The position numbers were made by a program, and so were the translations under genes. The notes beneath the pieces are model-generated. The model had not been told where the DNA came from, searched no databases, and saw only the letters and a list, made by a program, of their open reading frames with translations. Shown in pieces: positions 35,749 through 62,390 of a stretch of 64,000 nucleotides of DNA (position 1 is its first letter; each line of letters opens with the position of its first letter). The DNA lies in NCBI RefSeq assembly GCF_026210795.1, contig NC_089435.1, positions 3,534,001-3,598,000 on the forward strand, given 5' to 3'. This DNA is from Rhizophagus irregularis. Its lineage: Eukaryota > Glomeromycota > Glomeromycetes > Glomerales > Glomeraceae.

Positions 35749-38700
35749 ATGGACCAATGTATTGGTAAAGGTAAAGCATATAACATGAATAATAATATAA
35801 ATTAGAATTATTCAAAATTATTAAACCAAATTTACAATATAACAAAAACTAGTTTCCAGTAATATTGAAGAATTTGAAGAAAATGGCACTGGAGAATTTG
35901 AAAGTAGTAGTATTAAGGAATTTGAAGGAAGTAACACCAAGGAATCTAAAGGTATATCAAACAAGCTGAAATATTAAGTTTTTATTTATAAACAATTCAA
36001 ATACTACAATCTAACTATATTATATAAATATTATGTTAAATATCTAGCTCGTAAGTTAGTTAATATAATTGAATAAAATGAATTACTCATTATTTTTATT
36101 GTATTCCATATAACTAAATAATTTATTTAATGGTTAATAATACTGTAGTTGGTAAGTCATCAGTCATTTAAATCTTTAGTCCTTTACTTTATTTATTCTA
36201 CATAACATTCAAATAACCAAATTTTTTGTTTAAATAACTATTTAATAATTAATTATATTACAGATGGTAAGTTACAATAATATATATATTATATTTATTT
36301 ATTTAATATTATACATAATTCAACTAATTATATTTTAATTTAAATAACTAGATTGTAAGTAATATATATAATTTACAGTAAATACTTCTATATTATCTTT
36401 ATATCTAACTAATTAATAATTAATAATACTACAGGGTGTAAGTTATATGATATCTATATCTATATTATTTATATAATTTAACTAATTTCTTTATTTAAAA
36501 AATTATTTTGTAATTTAATTTAGTTGGTAAGTTATAAGTTATTTATTTAATTCTATTATTACTTATTATTATAATATTTACATATAATTTAAACTAACTT
36601 ATTTTATAGCTGGTAAGTTATTTATTTAGTTCTATTATTATTGTTATAATATTTTACATATAATTTAAACTAACTAATTTCTTTATTTAAAATTATTAAA
36701 TAATATAGGGTGTAAGTTATTTATTTAATTCTATTATTACTTATTGTTATAATATTTTGAACTAACTAATTTTTTTATTTAAAAAATTATTTTATAGCTG
36801 GTAAGTTATTTATTTAATTCTATTATTACTTATTTTTATAATATTTTACATATAATTTAAACTAATTATTTAAAAAATTATTAAATAATATAGGATGTAA
36901 GTTATTTATTTAATTCTATTATTACTTATTGTTATAAATATTTACATATAATTTAAGCTAACTAATTTCTTTATTTAAAAAATTGTTTTGTAATTTAATT
37001 TAGTTGGTAAGTTAGAAGTTATTTATTTAATTCTATTATTACTTATTATTATAATATTTACACATAATTTAAACTAACTATTTCCTTATTTAAAAAATTA
37101 TTAAATAATAAAGGGTGTAAGTTATTTATTTAATTCTATTATTACTTATTGTTATAATATTTATGTATAATTTAAACTAACTATTTCCTTATTTAAAAAA
37201 TTATTAAATAATAAAGGGTGTAAGTTATTTATTTAATTCTATTATTACTTATTATTATAATATTTATGTATAATTTAAACTAACTAATTTCTTCATTTAA
37301 TAGATTGTAAGTTATAAGTTATTTATTTAATTCTATTATTACTTATTGTTATAATATTTACATATAATTTAAACTAACTAATTTCTTTATTTAACAAATT
37401 ATTTTATAGCTGGTAAGTTATTTATTTAATTCTATTATTACTAATTGTTATAATATTTTACATATAATTTAAACTAACTAATTTCTTTATTTAAAACATT
37501 ATTAAATAATATAGGGTGTAAGTTATTTATTTAATTCTATTATTATTTATTGTTATCGTTCAGCCCAATAGGATCATGCAGATTTTCATAGACCGATATT
37601 TTTATTAGCCATAGCAATAACACATGATTGATATAATAGAGTGGAGTAAAAAAATGGTGTATATGAATATTTTGTAGGAAAAGTTTAATTAAAATTTATA
37701 AAGTAGATTAAAAATGAAATTTAGTATGATCAAAAACGTCAGAACGATAACACACTTGGATGTGGGCTATATCGGTCACAGGGACCTTCATTGATTGGTG
37801 AAAATGGCCACTACGTGGCCCATTTTCATCCAATCATTCAGTCCTGTGACCGATATAGCTACTCCATCATCCAATAACTATTTATTATAATATTTACATA
37901 TAATTTAAGCTAACTAATTTCTTTATTTGAAAAATCATTTTGTAATTTAATTTAGTTGGTAAGTTATAAGTTATTTATTTACTTATTGTAATATTTACGT
38001 ATAATTTAAACTAACTAATTTCTTTATTTAATAGATCGTAAGTTATAAGTTATTTATTTAATTCTATTATTACTTATTGTTATAATATTTACGTATAATT
38101 TAAACTAACTAATTTCTTCATTTAAAAAATTATTAAATAATATAGGGCGTAAGTTATTTATTTAATTCTATTATTACTTATGATTATAATATTTTACATA
38201 TAATTTAAACTAACTAATTTCTTTATTTAAAAAATTATTAAATAATATAGGGAGTAAGTTATTTATTTAATTCTTATTGTTATAATATTTACATATAATT
38301 TAAACTATCTATTTATTTAAAAAATTATTAAATAATAGGGAGTAAGTTATTTATTTAATTATATTATTACTTTTTGTTATAATATTTACATATAATTTGC
38401 TAACTAATTTCTTTATTTAAAAAATTATTAAATTATATAGGGAGTAAGTTATTTATTTAATTCTATTATTACTTTTTGTTATAATATTTACGTATAATTT
38501 GAACTAACTAATTTCTTTATTTAAAAATTATTTTATAGATGGTAAGTTATTTGTTTAATTCTATTATTACTTATTGTTATAATATTTACATATAATTTAA
38601 TTTCTTTATTTAAAAAATTATTAAATAATATAGGGCGTAAGTTATTTATTTAATTCTATTATTACTTATTGTTATAATATTTACATATAATTTAAACTAA

Positions 38701-41267
38701 CTAATTTCTTTATTTAAAAAATTATTTTGTAATTTAATTTAGTTAGTAAGTCATAATTTATTTATTTAATTCTATTATTACTTATTGTTATAATATTTAC
38801 ATATAATTTAAACTAACTAATTTCTTTATTTAAAAAATTATTTTGTAATTTATTTTAGTTGGTAAGTCATAAGTTATTTATTTAATTCTATTATTACTTA
38901 TTGTTATAATATTTACATATAATTATATAATTTAAACTAACTAATTTCTTTATTTAAAAAATTATTTTGTAATTTAATTAGATTGTAAGTCATAAGTTAT
39001 TTATTTAATTCTATTATACTTATTGATATAATATTCACATATAATTTAAACTAACTAATTTCTTTATTTAAAAAATTATTTTATAGATGGTAAGTTATTT
39101 ATTTAATTCTATTATTACTTATTGTTATAATATTTACATATAATTTAAACTAACTAATTTCTTTATTTAAAAAATTATTTTGTAGATGGTAAGTTATTTA
39201 TTTAGTTCTATTATACCTATTGCTATAATATTTACATATAATTTAAACTAACAAATTTCTTTATTAAAAAAATTATTTTATAGATGGTAAGTTATTTATT
39301 TAATTCTATTATTACTTATTGTTATAATATTTACATATAATTTAATTTCTTTATTAAAAAATTATATATGAACTAGCTTGTAAGTATTTCTATTGTTATA
39401 TATTTTATATAATATTTATTTGTTAACTAAATTTCTTCATTTAAAAAATATCTGTTACTTTAGTTGGTAAGTTGTAAATTACAGGTTATTATATGTATTT
39501 TCCAAAAATTAAGACTTATATTACATTAAATTCCTATTTAAATTTTAGAGTAAGTAATAATTTATTTTGTGTAAATTATAATACAATACTATAATATAAT
39601 TTTAATTATTTAAATTTATAGATTTGGGAAAAGTGGAAATACAATTATAGATGATTTTATTCTTGAAAAACAATTGAGATGGATCCCTTTTAACAAGTTT
39701 AAAAATGTTGAATATCTTAACGAAGGAGGATTTGGTACTATATACAAAGCTATTTGGGTAAAGAATAATGGAAATAAATATAAAGATAATGAAGATGATG
39801 AAGATAATGAAGATGATAAAGATGATGAAGATGATGAAGAAGGTGAAGATGATGAAGATGATGAAGAAGGTGAAGATGATGAAGAATATAAAGAATATAA
39901 AGAAGATGAAGAAGATGAAGAAGTAATTCTTAAATGTTGCAAGAAATTAAATGAAAATTTAAATGAATTTTTGAAAGAAGTAAGATAGATTGATAGTATA
40001 TTATTTTTTATTTTTATAATTTAGATTAATAAATTATTATTATATTTTATAGTGGAAATATCATACAAGTGTTTTAAGTTCAAATGATATTATAAATTTT
40101 CATGGATTTACAGAAGATCCAAATACTTCAAAATATATGGTAGTAATGGATTATGCAAATAAAGGTAGTTTAAGAGAAAATTTAACAAGTATAGTCAAAA
40201 ATAATTGGAATCAAAAATTATATATGTTGTACGAAATTATTTCTGGACTAAGTAAGATACATGGAGAAGAACTTATTCATTGTGATTTTCATGATGGTAA
40301 TATTTTAAAACATAATGATGAGAATAAGGATAAAATTTATATTAGTGATTTAGGATTATGTCAACCTGCAAAATCATTTTTGAAAAAGTATGATATTTAT
40401 GGTGTTATACCATTTATGGCTCCTGAAGTTTTAAGAGGCAAATCTTATACTCCAGCTAGTGATATATATAGTTTTTCTATGATTATGTGGGAGTTTACAT
40501 CTGGAATACCACCATTTAACAATCGAGCACATGATCTTCAGCTTAGTTTAAGTATTTGTAAAGGTGAACGTCCTGGAATTATTGAAAATACTCCACAATG
40601 TTATGTAAATTTAATGAAAAAATGTTGGAATAAAAATCCATTAAAAAGACCATCTACTTCAGAAGTGAAAGGTGTTTTTGAGAATTGGATTATCCGTCCT
40701 TATAAAAATGAAGTCAGTAAAGAATTAAAAAGCAACATTATGGAATTTATAAATGCACCAATTGGGCATAACAATCTTACTACTAAATCTCATCCTAAAG
40801 CATGTTTTACAAGTCGCTTACTTGATTTTACTAGTAAAAAATTGAATGAAATTCTTGAAAGTGAAAATTTACAAGCATATCATAAAAGTCATTCAGATTT
40901 GAATGATTGTGTTATTAAAGATTTGAGGTCATTAGGTATATACTATAATATATAAAAAATTAATCTTGCAAATTATTTATATGAAATTAATTAATTTATT
41001 TAATTATTAAAACAGATGAGAATATTAATAAAAAATTGAATGAAATTCTTGAAAGTGAAGATTTACATGCTAGTGTAAAAGCAAATGAAATAAATGAAAT
41101 GCTAGTAAGTGAAGATTTGAATAATTATATAATTAAGGATCTGGGGTCATTAGGTATGTACTATGATATATAAAGAATTAATCTTGCAAATTATTTATAT
41201 TATTTATGTGAATTAATTTTATTTAATATTTAATTATTTAGATATTAAAAAAGCAGATGAAAATTAA
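35749..41267 (+). CDS. Tyrosine-kinase-like protein kinase with micro-exon array
   Basis: Exons: 35749-35764, 35853-35951, then 32 three-base exons and a one-base exon (39549), then 39622-39979, 40053-40935, 41016-41153 and 41257-41267. All phases agree and give 533 residues. The N-terminus is acidic (NIEEFEENGTGEFESSS). After the array come FGKSGNTIIDDFI and WIPFNKF, then the kinase: G-loop NEGGFGTIYKAIW, an Asp/Glu-rich insert of about 45 residues, VILKC with the Lys, catalytic loop HCDFHDGNIL, ISDLGLC in place of DFG, MAPEVL, and DIYSFSMIMWEFTSGIPPF. Core residues are present, so catalysis is plausible. HCD replaces HRD and DLG replaces DFG, as in the relative at 56480-61342 (HGD, DLG). 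The array may instead be skipped as one large intron using the acceptor before 39651, which also keeps frame. Confidence 0.8.
35952..39621 (+). repeat. Tandem intron-like repeats separated by 3-base exons
   Basis: Units of about 80-123 bp each begin GTAAGT and end TAG, AAG or CAG. The three bases between AG and the next GTAAGT start at: 36048, 36149, 36264, 36352, 36435, 36524, 36610, 36709, 36798, 36894, 37004, 37114, 37217, 37304, 37410, 37515, 37956, 38035, 38146, 38251, 38339, 38441, 38539, 38634, 38743, 38859, 38982, 39087, 39186, 39284, 39377, 39464. The final junction (39549) holds one base. The triplets are TTG x6, ATG x5, GGT x5, ATT x3, CTG x3, GGA x3, GGC x2 and single CTC, GAT, ATC, TTA, CTT. 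Most introns share a core (TTATTTATTTAATTCTATTA, then TAATTTAAACTAACTAATTT) with four kinds of 3' end; the first four and last three are more diverged. Confidence 0.85.
37557..37878. mobile_element. Insertion inside one array intron, with long palindrome
   Basis: It interrupts the intron 37518-37955. The first ~170 bp (CGTTCAGCCCAATAGGA and on) match, reversed, the 62890-63045 region. The second part is a palindrome (about 37766-37860) with arms of roughly 45 bp around GGCCACTACGTGGCC, including CTATATCGGTCACAGG and CCTGTGACCGATATAG. Neighbouring intron sequence resumes on each side. Non-coding here. Confidence 0.7.
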
Positions 41268-56479: not shown

Positions 56480-59400
56480 TTAATTTTCAATTATACATTC
56501 CACACACTCAGAATCTTCTTTAACTAAGATTTCAGTAAGTTTGCGACTTGTATAATATGCTTGTGAATGATGTTGTATAATAGAAGTACCTGCTTGTCCT
56601 TGTACTAAAACTTTGTTTGCTTCTACAAATTCCAACATATCATTTTTTAACTGTTTATCAATATTAGGTACTTCATATTCATAATTATCATCCCTGTTTG
56701 TCTCATAAAATTTATTAATACTTCTAACCCATTCAGATATGATATTTTCAAGCATTATTATGTTTGGTCTATTAGAAGGATTTGTATCCCAACATTTTTT
56801 CATTAAATCTACATAACATTTTGGAGTATTTTTTATAATTTCAGGACGTTCCCCTTCACAAATACTCAGGGTAAGGTGATAATCATGTGCTTTACGATTA
56901 AATGGAGGAATACCTGATGTAAATTCCCACATTATCATTGAAAGGCTATAAATATCACTTGCTGAAGTATAGGGTTTTTTTCTTAATATTTCAGGCGCCA
57001 TATAAGGCAAAACTCCATAAACTTCATTTAATTTACTATCAGAATCTTGTAAATCATTTATAGGTTTACATAATCCTAAATCAATAATAAATATCTCATT
57101 GTTATCTGACATTAAAATATTACCATCATGAAAATCACCATGAGTTAAATTTGATTCATGAATTACTTTAAGTCCTAGTATAATTCTTTTTAATAATTGT
57201 AACTTTTCTTGCCACTTAAATTTAATTATATCAGATAAACATTTTCTCAAACTTCCTTTTCTTGCATAACTCATTATTATTATATAATTTAAATTTTTTG
57301 GATCTTGGGTAATTCCAAAGAATTGAATAAATCTTGAAAATGATTTTTTCTGACAATTATAATGATATTTCCACTATATAATCGATAAAAAATTATTAAA
57401 TTTTTGCAAAAGAAAATAAATATACAATTAAATAATATAAGTACTATACCTCATCCAGAAATTTGCTATTTAAACTTGATGAATTATTAAGTGTTTTAAG
57501 AATAACTTCATAACCTGTTTGTCTATTCCATTGTTCTTTGTCAAAATTCCAACCAAAAATAGGTCCATCTGACCAGATAGCCTTATAAATTTCACTAAAC
57601 CCTCCTTTATTATAATGATTAATTTCTGATAATTTATTATAAGGTATCCACTCTAAAATTTCATAACTATTTTTAGCATTTAGTTGTGCCTCTTGAATAA
57701 ATTTATCAATAAATTCATTTTTACTAGTCCACTTTGAAAAATCTTGTTGAAATCGTTTAGTATTACATTGTTGACACCACTGATAATCAGTATATGGTTG
57801 TTTGCATTCACTGCATAATTCAGATTTATTTCTAGGACTTATTTTGTTACTTTCTACCACTTTTTGATGCCAATAAAATGCTTTTTCTAAATTTATTTCT
57901 GTTCCTTTTCCTTTTTCATAACATATGGCTAAATTATACATTGCTTTAATGTGACCATTAACTGCTGCTTTTTGATACCAATGAAAGGTTTTTTCTAAAT
58001 TCTTTTCTGTTCCTTCTCCATTACAATATCTATTGGCTAAATTAAACATTGCTTCTTTAACACCATTTTCCGCTGCTTTTTGATACCAATGAAAAGCTTT
58101 TTCTAAATTCTTTTCTGTTCCTTTTCTATTATAATATCTATTGGCTAAATTAAACATTGCTTTAACATGATCATTTTCTGCTGCTTTTTTATACCAATAA
58201 AAGGCTTTTTTAAAATTCTTTTCTGTTCCTTTTCCATTATAATATTTATTGGCTAAATTAAACATTGCTTCTTTATCACCATTTTCTGCTGCTTTTGATG
58301 CCAATAAAAGGCTTTTTCTAAATTCTTTTCTGTCCTTTCTCCATTTTCATAATAAATGGCTAAATTAAACATTGCTTCTTTATAGTCATTTTCCGCTGCT
58401 TTCTGATACCAACAAAAGGCTTTTTCTAAATTCTTTTCTGTTCCTTCTCCACTTTCATAAAATATGGCTAAATTAAACATTGCTTTAATATGACCATTTT
58501 CTGCTGCTTTTTGATACCAATGAAAGGCTTTTTCTAAATTCTTTCCTGTTCCTTCTCCATTATTATAACATGTGGCTAAATTGAACATTGCTTTTTCATC
58601 ACTACTTTCTGCTGCATTTTGATACCAATAAAAGGCTTTTTCTAAATTTTTTTCTGTTCCTTTTCCATCTTCATAAAATATAGCTAAATTATACATTGCT
58701 TCTTTAGCACCATTATCTGCTAACTTTTGATACCAATGAAAGGCCTTTTCTAAATTCTTTTCTATTCCTATTCCACTATAATAATACATGGCTAAATTAA
58801 ACATTGCTTCTTTAAAGTCATTTTCTGCTGCTTTTTGACACCAAAAAAAGGCTTTCTCTAAATTTTTTTCTGTTCCTTTTTTATTATAATAACATATTGC
58901 CAAATTAAACATTGCATTAATATGACCATTTTCTGCTGCTTTTTGATACCAAAAAAAGGCTTTTTCTAAATTTTTTTCTGTTACTTCTCCATTTTCATAA
59001 AATATGGATAAATCAAACATTGCTTCTTTAATACCATTTTCTGCTGCTTTTTGATACCAATGAAAGGCTTTTTCTAAATTCTTTTCTGTTCCTTCTCCAT
59101 TATAATAGCTATTGGCTAAACTATACATTGCTTTAACATGATCATTTACTGCTGCTTTTTTATACCAGTGAAAGGCTTTTTCTAAATTCTTTTCTGTTCC
59201 TTCTCCATTATAATAGCTATTGGCTAAATTAAACATTGCTTCTTTAATACCATTTTCTGCTGCTTTTTGATACCAATAAAAGGCTTTTTCTAAATTCTTT
59301 TCTGTTCCTTCTCCATTATAATAACTATTGGCTAAATTAAGCATTGCGTTTTTATCTCCATTTTTTGTTGCTTTTTGATACCAATAAAAGGCTTTTTCTA

Positions 59401-61342
59401 AATTTTTTTCTATTCCTTCTCCATTAAAATAGCTATTGGCTAAATTAGTCATTGCTTTTTCATTACCATTCTTTGCTGCTTTTTTATACCAATAAAAGGC
59501 TTTTTCTGAATTCTTTTCTGTTCCTTCTCCACTTTTATAAAATATAGCTAAATTAAACATTGCTTCTTTATAGTTATTTTTTGCTGCTTTTTGACACCAA
59601 TAAAAGGCTTTTTCTAAATTCTCTTCTGTTCCTTCCCCACTTTTATAAAATATGGTTAAATTAAATATTGCTTCTTTAATACCATTTTCTGCTGCTTTTT
59701 GATACCAAAAAAAGGCTTTTTCCAAATTCTTTTCTGTTCCTTGCCCATTATAATAACTATTTGCTAAATTATACATTGCTTTAATATAATCATTTTCTGC
59801 TGCTTTTTTATACCAATGAAAGGCTTTTTCCAAATTCTTTTCTGTTCCTTTTCCATTATAATAGCTATTGGCTAAATTAAACATTGCCTTTTTATCACCA
59901 TTCTCTGCTGCTTTTTGATGCCAATAAAAGGCTTTTTCTAAATTCTTTTCTGTTCCTTCTCCATTATTATAACATATGGCCAAATTGAATATTGCTTCTT
60001 CATTATCATTTTCTGCTGCTTTTTGATACCAATAAAATGCTTTTTCTAAATTTTTTTCTGTTCCTTCTCCATTTTCATAAAATATGGCTAAACTATTCAT
60101 TGCTTTTTCATTACCATCCTCTGCTGCATTTTGATACCAATAAAAGGCTTTTTCTAAATTCTTTTCTGTTCCTTCTCCATTTTCATAAAATATGGCTAAA
60201 TTGAACATTGCTTCTTCATCACCATTTTCTGCTGCTTTTTTATACCAATAAAATGCTTTTTCTAAATTCTTTTCTGTTTTTTCCTCATTCTCATAAGATA
60301 TGGCTAAACTGCTCATTGCTTTTTTATTACCATTTTCTGCTGCTTTTTTATACCAATGAAAGGCTTTTTCTAAATTCTTTTCTGTTCCTTCTCCATTATT
60401 ATAACATATAGCTAAATTGAACATTGCTTTAATATGACCATTTTCTGCTGCTTTTTGATACCAATGAAAGGCTTTTTCTAAATTCTTTTCTGTTTCTTCT
60501 CCACTATAATAGATATTGGCTAAATTATACATTGCTTTAATATGACCATTTACTGCTGCATTTAGATACCAATAAAAAGCTTTTTCTAAATTCTTTTCTG
60601 TTTCTTCTCCATTATAATAGCTAATGGCTAAATTAAACATTGCTTCTTCATTACCATTTTCTGCTGCTTTTTGATACCAATAAAAGGCTTTTTCTGAATT
60701 CTTTTCTGTTCCTTCTCCATTTTTATAATTATTGGCTAGATTAAATATTGCTTCTTTAAACCCATTTTCTGCTGCTTTTTGATACCAATAAAAGGCTTTT
60801 TCCAAATTCTCTTCTGTTCCTTCTCCATTATAATAGCTAATGGCTAAATTAAATATTGCATAAATATGACCATTTTCTGCTGCCTTTTGATACCAATAAA
60901 AGCCTTTTTCTAAATTCTTTTCTGTTCCTTTTCCAGTTCTGTAATTATTGGCTAAATTAAACATTGCATCAGTATCACCATTTTCTGCTGCTTTTTGATA
61001 CCAATAAAAGCCTTTTTCTAAATTCTTTTCTGTTCCTTCTCCATTATTATAACATATTGCTAAACTGAACATTGCTTCTTCATCACCATTTTCTGCTGCT
61101 TTTTGATACCAATAATAGGCTTTTTCTAAGTTCTTTTCTGTTCCTTCTCCATTTTTATAATTATTTGCCAAACTAAACATTGTTACTTTATCACCAATTT
61201 CTACTAATTTTTCTAAAGAATTAGTATATTCCTTACACCATAATTCTTCAGTAAGAGGTTTATTGCAATATGAACAATTTTTCGTATTTATATTATCAGT
61301 ATTTTTATTTGAGATATTAGATTTACTAAATTTAGTTTCCAT
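56480..61342 (-). CDS. Sel1-repeat / zinc-ribbon / protein kinase fusion
   Basis: Exon 1 is 61342-57450 and exon 2 is 57373-56480 (intron 76 bp, GTATAG...ATAG). The N-terminus has a partial ribbon (NCSYCNKPLTEELWCKEY). About 31 Sel1 units of 36 residues follow (EKNLEKAFYWYQKAAENG), then a complete ribbon (LCSECKQPYTDYQWCQQC), TSKNEFIDKFI, and a kinase: G-loop YNKGGFSEIYKAIW, VILKT Lys, HGDFHDGNIL, FIIDLGLCKP, YMAPEIL, IYSLSMIMWEFTSGIPPF. Sel1 solenoids act as scaffolds, so a multi-client signalling kinase is likely. One defect: a T run at 58293-58296 has four T where sister repeats have five, shifting the frame between two Sel1 units. Restoring one base is all that separates the halves, so this may be an assembly error. 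Confidence 0.88.
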
Positions 61343-62390
61343 TTGGCTATTTTAAGGATTTATTTTATTGAAAAAATTTTTTATTTTTTTTTTATAATTT
61401 TTTTTGACAATTTATTTTTATTTAATATCATGAAAATTTTTTATAATACTTGAAATAACGTAGTTGGATAATTATGCTACGCTTCAATTTTTTTTAAAGG
61501 GCTAAGAACCTAATAACCCTGATTGTTTTTTTGTGACTAAAGAAAATTATTATTATTTTATCTTTTATTTCACTAACGTAAGGAGGGTTGGTCAAACAAA
61601 AAAATATTCGGAAACGATACTTTCATAGGTTTTAATATATTTTTTTTATTATTATTCCGGATTGTAACGAAAGGCTAGTTTCACAAAATTTTTGTGTTTT
61701 TATGATTAGTTACATTAGTTACATTTGTGCTTACCGTTCCAAATTTTGCAGATCATCGGAATTCTGCAGATCAACGGATATCTATATTTTTTTAGTATCA
61801 ATCAAGACATGAAGAGCAAAATATGATGACATATATATCATTAAAATTATATAAGCAATGTCTTTCTTCCATCTTTATGGCCTTCAGGCCTGAAATAAAT
61901 ATCTTTCCGGAATTCTATTTTCAAAAAACTTATTCATTTTTTGTGCTACATGATTGACATCAATTTCATCCATTTTGAAAATATTACTAAGCTTATGTAA
62001 TACTTACATAAGTTTAAATTGTGTTATATAAATTTTCTTTTTGGAATTCTAGTTTAAAAATATCATGAATTAATCACTAATTTAACCAAAAGTAGAAATT
62101 AGGCTGGATTATCTTGCCATACCATCCTTGCAGGTCATTTTGATCGGCAGTCTGCTTTTGTTTTTAGATTTGAACAAGTTGCAAGAGAGAGATCTTATTT
62201 AATACAAAACTATAGTCCCCGGGCGAAAGCAATGGCGGTGTGAATGAAATCTCATTTTTAAGTAATAGCACGAGCATTTTCCCAATTTGGAATTATTAAT
62301 TGTTTCCAAATTGGTAAATAGGCTTTACATTTAAAATCAAACGAGAAAAAAATAATATACAATAAATTTTTTCTGTTTTTTCTTTTAAAA
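61343..62390. other. Intergenic, 5' flank of the Sel1-kinase gene
   Basis: A+T-rich; no gene or obvious repeat. A G+C-richer patch at 62100-62245 has no coherent frame. Confidence 0.55.

Follow-up and report, generated by a model that had tools for sequence, protein, structure and literature searches.

The question raised by this locus is whether a run of introns separated by only three bases, lying ahead of the kinase domain of a gene in Rhizophagus irregularis, encodes protein. The run extends from 35952 to 39621 on the + strand of the window, which is the whole 64,000-nt stretch of DNA that was analyzed. Judged from the sequence, the array is quite probably a series of one-codon exons that are translated, in a large family of kinases of this arbuscular mycorrhizal fungus. 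The original prediction, in which the introns separate one-codon exons that can be skipped in any subset, was partly right; one-codon, frame-keeping exons are supported and freely skipped isoforms are not.

The site count and the gene model give an array of 34 introns, 32 one-codon exons and one 1-nt exon. There are 33 GTAAGT sites between 36051 and 39550, as had been claimed. The distance from AG to GTAAGT is exactly 3 nt at 32 of them and 1 nt at the final site (AG-A-GTAAGT), and the count agrees with the original prediction on the constant spacing and on the GTAAGT donor at 33 of 33 sites. The donor of the first array intron (35952) is GTATAT rather than GTAAGT, which adds one intron and brings the total to 34. 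The + strand of the window contains the AGNNNGTAAGT pattern 33 times, with 32 copies inside the array, and the - strand contains it once. Window introns measure 72-120 nt, so the upper bound of the predicted range (about 76 to 120 bp) stands and the lower bound does not. The single longer intron of 438 nt (37518-37955) contains the expected insertion, which sequence inspection found to carry inverted repeats. The exact CTAAC branch sequence is missing from 11/34 introns. The G+C content is 46% in the triplets versus 15% in the whole array. The first and last units have diverged and retain the 3-nt spacing, as had been noted. Since the array is tandem, its regularity is weak proof by itself, and it is about 50 paralogous arrays that provide evidence beyond chance.

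Exon 1 (35749-35770) is predicted to start with ATG, to encode MDQCIGK and to end in phase 1, with an open frame into exon 2 (35853-35951), which ends in phase 1 and carries the GTATAT donor. The head of the array contains microexons 1 to 5. CTC (36048-36050), TTG (36149-36151) and ATG (36264-36266) are placed by the site count and the starts of paralogous arrays; ATT (36352-36354) and GGT (36435-36437) are placed by the ATT-GGT order in those starts. The variable interior, placed by the site count, begins with microexon 6, TTG (36524-36526), followed by CTG (36610-36612), GGT (36709-36711), CTG (36798-36800), GAT (36894-36896), TTG (37004-37006), GGT (37114-37116), GGT (37217-37219), ATT (37304-37306), CTG (37410-37412), GGT (37515-37517), TTG (37956-37958), ATC (38035-38037), GGC (38146-38148), GGA (38251-38253), GGA (38339-38341), GGA (38441-38443), ATG (38539-38541), GGC (38634-38636), TTA (38743-38745), TTG (38859-38861), ATT (38982-38984), ATG (39087-39089) and ATG (39186-39188). 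It ends with microexon 30, ATG (39284-39286), which is also supported by paralog array ends. The same array ends place the tail, which consists of microexons 31, CTT (39377-39379), and 32, TTG (39464-39466), and the one-nucleotide exon A (39549), which the frame of exon 3 also requires. All of these features are on the + strand. When the triplets are read in the phase that exon 2 sets, they give 33 codons (ALDDWFAGSGFGWYSGFDRRRRNGLIDYDDAFE) with zero stops, as predicted, and the one-base exon supplies the phase needed by exon 3.

Exon 3 (39622-39979; FGKSGNTIIDDFI...) encodes the start of the kinase N-lobe and an acidic low-complexity insert, and homology to the neighbouring kinase confirms its frame. 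Exon 4 (40053-40935) encodes the bulk of the kinase domain, with HCDFH and DLG, and exon 5 (41016-41153) and exon 6 (41242-41267, stop included) are supported by their open frames. Most of the protein is encoded by exons 3 and 4 and not by the array. The gene had been called a protein kinase, and the match to PF07714 (E 7.9e-38) and the catalytic motifs HCDFH and DLG bear this out. Among solved structures, 13 match at E up to 1e-20 (best E 1.6e-22), and every one of them is RIPK1, which is a TKL kinase. A dN/dS of about 0.75 in exon 4 suggests moderate constraint.

Neighbouring AG-NNN-GTAAGT pairs number 2734 in the fungus's own genome (32 contigs, 146.7 Mb) versus 58 for the reversed pattern, which alone serves as the background. 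The best matches to the ends of the window's array supplied about 50 related kinase genes, which were read in part or whole; they come from one genome and are neither an independent nor a random sample. Exon 2 and the first two cassettes match 39 further loci of the genome with 72-91% identity. Several of these matches begin only inside exon 2. The paralogous arrays have in common the head triplets (typically A-L-D-D-W) and the tail (CTT, TTG, one-base A), and their middle is hypervariable. ATT directly followed by GGT is found within the first nine triplets at 30/30 start loci. In the aligned array ends, the tail CTT has T at its second and third bases in 30/30 and C at its first in 25/30, and the tail TTG has T, T and G in 30/30, 26/30 and 29/30, respectively. 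The one-base exon is A in 30/30 array ends, including that of the window; one array outside this set (L038) has T at this position. An ORF of at least 280 aa lies downstream of the array end at 30/30 loci, and exon 3 is open over 61 translated codons, in the frame set by the one-base exon, at 29/30. These counts uphold the claim that the one-base exon provides the phase of the kinase exon.

Among 777 distinct GTAAGT sites, 735 lie exactly 3 nt past an AG, 28 follow a one-base exon and 14 have another spacing. The donor is GTAAGT at 827/861 sites of the kinase arrays, in which the longest run of recognised triplets is 45. A YTRAY branch-like site is missing, within the zone searched, in 23/761 introns, and given such introns some units may be skipped. 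Some units look dead, with altered donors or an intron that is too short. A second intron family has the same 3-nt spacing and forms a 67-site array ahead of an AIG1 GTPase gene. None of its 63 junctions forms a stop, and shuffles give 0.55, so this absence is uninformative. A 33-nt intron core occurs at 1527 places; among about 100 listed, many are clustered in arrays and several are isolated.

In-frame stops occur at 2/761 junctions between neighbouring triplets versus 17.0 +/- 3.3 in order shuffles (0/2000 as low), an expectation that is overstated because the all-site shuffle contains the conserved ends. The interior-only junctions are more trustworthy and give 2/572 stops versus 10.6 +/- 2.6 in shuffles (4/20000 as low); the interior set without the spacing filter has 3 stops in 678 junctions. 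The two strictly adjacent junctions that form stops (C4:4281154 and C6:381461) are both in genes with long kinase ORFs. Pairs two to five apart are unprotected, with 15/683 stops when one triplet is skipped and 18/605 further apart. The difference between neighbours and skipped pairs has a Fisher p of 3e-6 for all sites and 0.014 for the interior set without the spacing filter. In the other phases the kinase arrays have 131 stops (phase 2) and 4 stops (phase 0). With only 4 stops, stop counts alone leave phase 0 possible, and the phase is set by exons 2 and 3. Since stop avoidance is limited to neighbours, the triplets look translated, in order and mostly unskipped. Constraint on the microexons at the level of frame and codon is indicated by sequence comparison.

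Chance or plain tandem repetition was rejected as an explanation of the array, since the 3-nt spacing holds in the diverged ends, in the paralogs and in a different intron family, and stops between neighbours are avoided. It is unlikely that the microexons behave as cassette exons, with numerous combinations of skips yielding the very many single-residue isoforms per gene that the original prediction allowed. No triplet alters the frame and a good branch site is absent from some introns, so some skipping is likely. However, a skip in phase 1 creates new codons, and stops are avoided in neighbours and not in triplets one or more apart. Constitutive, ordered inclusion predicts exactly this, so free skipping is unsupported; the nearly uniform donors also weigh against it. 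The array is very unlikely to be one composite intron, with its sites left over from tandem duplication or acting as recursive-splicing ratchets, and with an mRNA that runs from exon 2 through the one-base exon into exon 3, or from exon 2 to 39651. Both joints are in frame and tandem duplication explains the regular spacing in the core of the array, but neighbour stop avoidance is phase-specific and the 3-nt spacing persists in diverged end units and in a different intron family. The four-letter composition of the triplets and the shared head and tail codons also argue against a composite intron, and the 39651 acceptor would remove a motif that this gene has in common with the neighbouring kinase.

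Triplets differ at 15.4% of sites versus 0.7% for the last 20 intron bases in the same run. All four bases occur at triplet positions, whereas A or T predominates at most adjacent intron positions. Intron length changes freely, as 82% of 1401 same-array pairs with less than 3% mismatch differ by gaps. Identical introns in different arrays are followed by different triplets in 167/235 pairs, which would fit introner-like elements that invaded an existing coding stretch, one per codon, leaving alike introns and unlike triplets. This origin is highly improbable, since identical introns within one cassette run are followed by the same triplet in 110/138 pairs, multi-cassette blocks are repeated (arrays L022 and L041) and triplets track the 3'-end classes of their introns. 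The same-run difference could also come from a mutation hot spot targeted to the exon between splice sites instead of selection, and the head triplets are somewhat above the surrounding introns (0.161 versus 0.119 differences per site at 30 start loci). A hot spot is nevertheless quite unlikely, as the head and tail triplets (the latter 0.086 versus 0.071 per site at array ends) have the same splice context and show just 1.2 to 1.4 times the intron difference; the triplet just inside the tail reaches 0.57 per site, though its column need not be orthologous. The variability could also come from introns being homogenised and triplets being left to drift, as an alternative to diversifying selection. 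The variability found is between genes at the DNA level.

In a chain of translated one-codon exons, each cassette would consist of an intron of about 100 nt and one triplet. Since a 3-nt exon cannot accommodate two splicing complexes simultaneously, the cassettes would be spliced successively by intron definition. Each splice would extend the exon by 3 nt and set a strong GTAAGT donor right behind it, resembling recursive splicing with a 3-nt step instead of 0. In phase 1 each codon would take its first base from the end of one microexon and its other two from the start of the following one, so the microexons would have to be included in order and almost completely; the one-base exon would then move the phase into the kinase exon. 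The paralogs suggest that cassettes in the middle of the array are duplicated, deleted and substituted, whereby the encoded segment would vary in length and sequence among kinase genes and the frame would rarely break. In the protein, the A-[LF]-[DN]-D-W head and the FEFGKSGN tail would flank a hypervariable peptide before the TKL-type kinase domain. Such a peptide would probably serve in recognition or in the choice of partners and be under diversifying selection. More tentatively, tandem cassettes of an intron and a codon, read in ordered 3-nt recursive steps, might be a frame-proof hypervariability system placed genome-wide before signalling domains (TKL kinases and an AIG1/GIMAP-type GTPase) of this root symbiont, perhaps to recognise partners or to tell self from non-self.

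If the triplets are included, dozens of successive introns would lie one codon apart in many genes of one fungus, which to our knowledge would be the densest exon-intron arrangement known. Among the papers listed by literature searches, none reports a comparable one-codon exon array. Such arrays would test the reach of intron definition and recursive splicing without exon definition. They would also generate diversity at the DNA level with scarcely any shift of reading frame and could allow rapid change, in a large hypervariable family of a fungus living inside plant roots. Present gene models of these kinases may omit or misread the variable segment.

The micro-exon genes (MEG) of Schistosoma mansoni have exons of 6 to 81 bp (given as 3-81 bp in the abstract of the source), most of 15 bp and 10 to 20 per gene, introns of up to about 5 kb and secreted proteins (PMC10526429). 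They resemble the fungal genes in having consecutive, very short and mostly frame-neutral exons, a variable protein, a multigene family and difficult automatic annotation (PMC10526429). In contrast, nearly all interior exons of the fungal arrays are 3 nt, with up to 45 (kinases) or 67 (AIG1) consecutive, and the introns are about 100 nt, mutually alike and ahead of a kinase domain. Short frame-neutral exons of 6-81 bp make up most of a MEG coding sequence, whereas exons 3 and 4 dominate here, and the Pfam match to a kinase sets this protein apart by description from a secreted non-enzyme protein. Recursive splicing and zero-nucleotide exons (PMC6224609, PMC6110457, PMC8605326) share an acceptor immediately followed by a strong donor, so that a donor is rebuilt at the joint by each splice. 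The fungal arrays differ in their short introns and in that each of dozens of repeated steps would leave 3 nt of coding sequence behind; AG directly abuts GT (0 nt) at only one of the 777 sites. Drosophila homothorax (PMC7392893) and Arabidopsis APC11 (PMC4674806) show that exons of 3 nt and 1 nt are within reach of the spliceosome, and the APC11 authors suggest that a combination of intron definition and recursive splicing might apply. Those are isolated cases, with no chain spelling a protein segment. The aphid bicycle genes have small exons of an ordinary kind. They are likewise a fast-evolving multigene family recognised via gene structure (PMC9168663). The fungal exons differ in being one codon each, and the proteins are unrelated. 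Fungal NLR repeat domains, such as the WD40 repeats of HET-E, are alike and diversify at a few codons per repeat for self/non-self recognition. In the NLR the repeat is protein, whereas in the arrays described here the introns form the repeat and each exon consists of one codon.

The array in the window contains 33 sites between 36046 and 39555, of which 32 have the form AG-NNN-GTAAGT and the last is AG-A-GTAAGT. This count bears out the run of 32 three-base sites and a final one-base site in the original prediction. Elsewhere in the window GTAAGT occurs 14 times on the + strand and 12 times on the - strand, and just one of these per strand is preceded by an AG at a distance of 3 nt. Exon 2 (35853-35951, + strand) ends in phase 1, and this phase is kept through the 32 triplets. 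The one-base exon A (39549, + strand) gives phase 2, in which exon 3 (39622-39979, + strand) is open and continues FGKSGNTIIDDFI; the single base thus supplies the phase of the kinase exon, as had been claimed. When the triplets are joined in order, the predicted protein reads ESK-ALDDWFAGSGFGWYSGFDRRRRNGLIDYDDAFE-FGKSGN across the array, and conceptual translation of the whole gene model gives 540 residues with no stop. The model matches Pfam protein kinase models, which supports the prediction of a protein kinase gene. Among solved structures, the kinase part is nearest to RIPK1, a TKL kinase. Homology to another kinase in the window (57447-58346, - strand) confirms the frame predicted for exon 3; 24 of 51 aligned positions are identical (pair E 4e-13).

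Other features of the region were also noted. The insertion in the 438-nt intron (37551-37859) carries two inverted repeats, one perfect and 17 nt long (37766-37782 and 37843-37859), the other imperfect and 39 nt long, and resembles a small foldback element. Exon 3 contains an acidic 9-bp microsatellite (39783-39921) within the kinase N-lobe; this insert is shorter or absent in many of the 30 loci read at their array ends. On the - strand near the array gene, at 57444-61351, Sel1-repeat proteins were recognized by eye together with a kinase that has a cysteine motif; Sel1-repeat and kinase content of this kind is associated with Rhizophagus.

The arrangement is common in the genome, which was searched over 32 contigs and 146,748,485 bases (the window is on contig 7). 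The pair pattern AGNNNGTAAGT-N60..90-AGNNNGTAAGT occurs 1306 + 1428 times, compared to 56 + 2 for the reversed pair pattern used as control, and a 33-nt intron core is found at 734 + 793 places with at most 1 mismatch and at none for its control. Exon 2 with the first cassettes (each an intron of about 100 nt plus one triplet) matches at least 40 loci including the window's own (152 candidates, 40 scored), and the last cassettes with exon 3 also match at least 40 (280 candidates, 40 scored). The 30 best start loci and 30 best end loci were read; ten genes are common to both, giving about 50 genes including that of the window, and since they are the best matches to the window they do not sample the 2734 pairs at random. 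Two candidate very long arrays were seen. In one (G000:C2:1346683-1355448) an array-start match lies at 1346683 and copies of the intron core extend to 1355448; in the other (G000:C3:4850243-4855039) such copies are spread across about 4.8 kb.

The spacing of the sites is nearly invariant. GTAAGT lies 3 nt after AG at 423 of 433 sites behind the match start in the start loci and at 450 of 484 in the end loci, where 28 more lie at 1 nt and represent the one-base exon. When sites with the same 120-base context are merged, 735 of 777 distinct sites are at 3 nt, 28 are one-base exons and 14 have other spacings. Three of these 14 touch a locus edge and two are inside exon 2; the remainder include two at 6 nt, one at 4 nt, one at 0 nt and one at 2 nt, whose preceding intron is too short for splicing. 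Rare 6-nt array exons that keep the frame are TTGTTG (L021 at 1822) and TGGGGT (L014 at 3030). Intron lengths are spread over all classes modulo 3 (284, 256 and 221; n=761). The donor is GTAAGT at 827 of 861 sites, a count for which the site definition itself included AG, NNN and a list of GT-type donors. GTAAGT is nearer the donor consensus than the ordinary donors of the window gene, which are GTATAT, GTAAGA, GTATAT and GTATGT. A GC donor (AG-AAG-GCAAGT) occurs in the third cassette of L001 (G000:C1 near 1382800), an array otherwise using GTAAGT. Branch-like sites in the zone searched in 761 introns are CTAAC in 289, CTAAT in 346, another YTRAY in 103 and none in 23. Over 683 units, the triplet positions take all four bases and most of the 20 flanking positions on either side are mainly A or T, except +12 and +20, which have much G or C.

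Stop codons are rare where neighbouring triplets meet. If the triplets are joined in the frame of exons 2 and 3, the possible stops are T|AA, T|AG and T|GA. Only 2 of 761 adjacent junctions do so, compared to 17.0 +/- 3.3 when the order is shuffled within runs (never below 7 in 2000 shuffles), and with each distinct pair taken once per run there are 2 stops in 671 versus 16.4 +/- 3.1 (0 of 5000 shuffles as low). Since the conserved ends inflate the all-site result, the interior, or variable middle of the arrays, was tested alone. It has 2 stops in 572 junctions versus 10.6 +/- 2.6 (4 of 20000 shuffles as low), or 3 in 678 versus 11.7 +/- 2.9 without the spacing filter (1 of 3000); junctions within tandem blocks are not fully independent in these counts. 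The avoidance is specific to neighbours. Triplets 2, 3, 4 and 5 apart show none, with 15/683, 18/605, 17/535 and 12/474 stops, nor do those of the interior, with 8/499, 6/434, 7/378 and 5/326. The neighbour-only pattern fits an ordered inclusion of neighbouring triplets and does not support the suggestion that any subset of triplets could be skipped freely.

The arrays have common ends. The head is exactly CT[CT]-TT[GA]-ATG-ATT-GGT, encoding A-[LF]-[DN]-D-W, in 17 of 30 start loci, and with rarer donors also accepted the first nine triplets of all 30 include an ATT with GGT immediately after it. The tail is CTT-TTG-A; all 30 aligned ends have the A, and in at least two its donor is GTAAGC. The 13 arrays read end to end have 18 to 45 recognized triplets, in lists that omit units with unusual donors, and 10 of them are open into exon 3 in translation. 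L016 has a stop in the translated array, L022 came out of frame because the GTAAGC donor of its one-base exon was not recognized in the translation, and L038, which the translation left unjoined to exon 3, has T as the one-base exon in its own sequence.

The middle of the arrays is variable, and the variation is concentrated in the triplets. The comparison used pairs with an identical 5' part of the preceding intron (156 within runs, 746 between runs). In the 20 intron bases that immediately precede AG, 0.7% of sites differ for pairs within a run and 3.8% for pairs between runs. The corresponding figures are 15.4% and 35.7% for the triplets, and 3.0% and 12.6% for positions +7 to +26 of the intron that follows. 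Paralogs that are 97% identical over 700 bp of kinase flank, such as three contig 14 genes (L041, L042, L045), have the tail in common but few of the other triplets among the final 14 to 16 that were read. Such variation could come from a mutational hot spot linked to the splice context, and the head triplets are somewhat more variable than the introns around them (0.161 vs 0.119 differences per site in 30 loci; ATG, ATT and GGT 0.122, CTC and TTG 0.220). However, the tail triplets vary about as much as the tail introns (0.086 vs 0.071; 30 loci), and the first triplet inward from the tail reaches 0.57. These figures point more to an interior under selection or turnover than to a hot spot, which is an improbable explanation, but they do not settle the question. 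Cassettes are also duplicated in blocks: in L022 a seven-triplet run (GGA TTG ATC ATC GGT TTG TGA) is present twice, and in L041 five triplets are repeated two and a half times.

The kinase genes themselves are largely intact. Each of the 30 end loci is followed by an ORF of 280 residues or more that contains H-x-D-x-H. In 29 of 30, exon 3 is open in the frame it needs across the 61 codons that were translated; L056 has a stop. The mean dN of 0.093 and mean dS of 0.125 in exon 4 (435 pairs; 263 of 346 codon columns kept) represent moderate constraint.

A second array with different introns is located on contig 1 (G000:C1:1723678-1731440; L077, L076, L078) and has 67 triplet sites with mostly GTAAGT or GTGAGT donors. 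In a genome search, a 671-base piece of it matches only itself and one contig 17 array, and none of the kinase arrays. Directly 3' is a 931-residue ORF that has an AIG1-family GTPase domain (PF04548, E 1.7e-17) and, as judged by eye, a coiled coil; the array would be joined to this ORF. Read from the second base, the array gives 66 proline-rich residues with no stop, an absence that is not significant, and the initial M comes from an ATG split between the first two triplets. The contig 17 array (L079, G000:C17:3900700-3905200) belongs to this second intron family, has 17 triplets and is open in 2 of 3 phases. On its 3' side are kinase-like ORFs, and a cysteine (zinc-ribbon-like) motif was seen by eye in one of them. 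Since one array lies 5' of an AIG1 GTPase and others in kinase genes, one-codon arrays precede at least two kinds of signalling protein.

The triplets are probably included in the mRNA, in a constitutive order, and the encoded segment may have a recognition function. The intron of each cassette would be removed by stepwise intron-defined splicing combined with recursive splicing. Titles and opening lines of abstracts among the open-licence PMC matches listed contain no report of such arrays, in Rhizophagus or elsewhere, and the word "microexon" is absent from the main text of PMC10234402. That paper presents an assembly of R. irregularis DAOM197198 made with Nanopore reads and Illumina polishing, and it also describes how Nanopore RNA reads were used. 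In Arabidopsis, correct splicing of a one-base exon has been shown, and intron definition with recursive splicing is suggested as a scheme that might apply there (PMC4674806); that scheme is the same as the one proposed here for each cassette.
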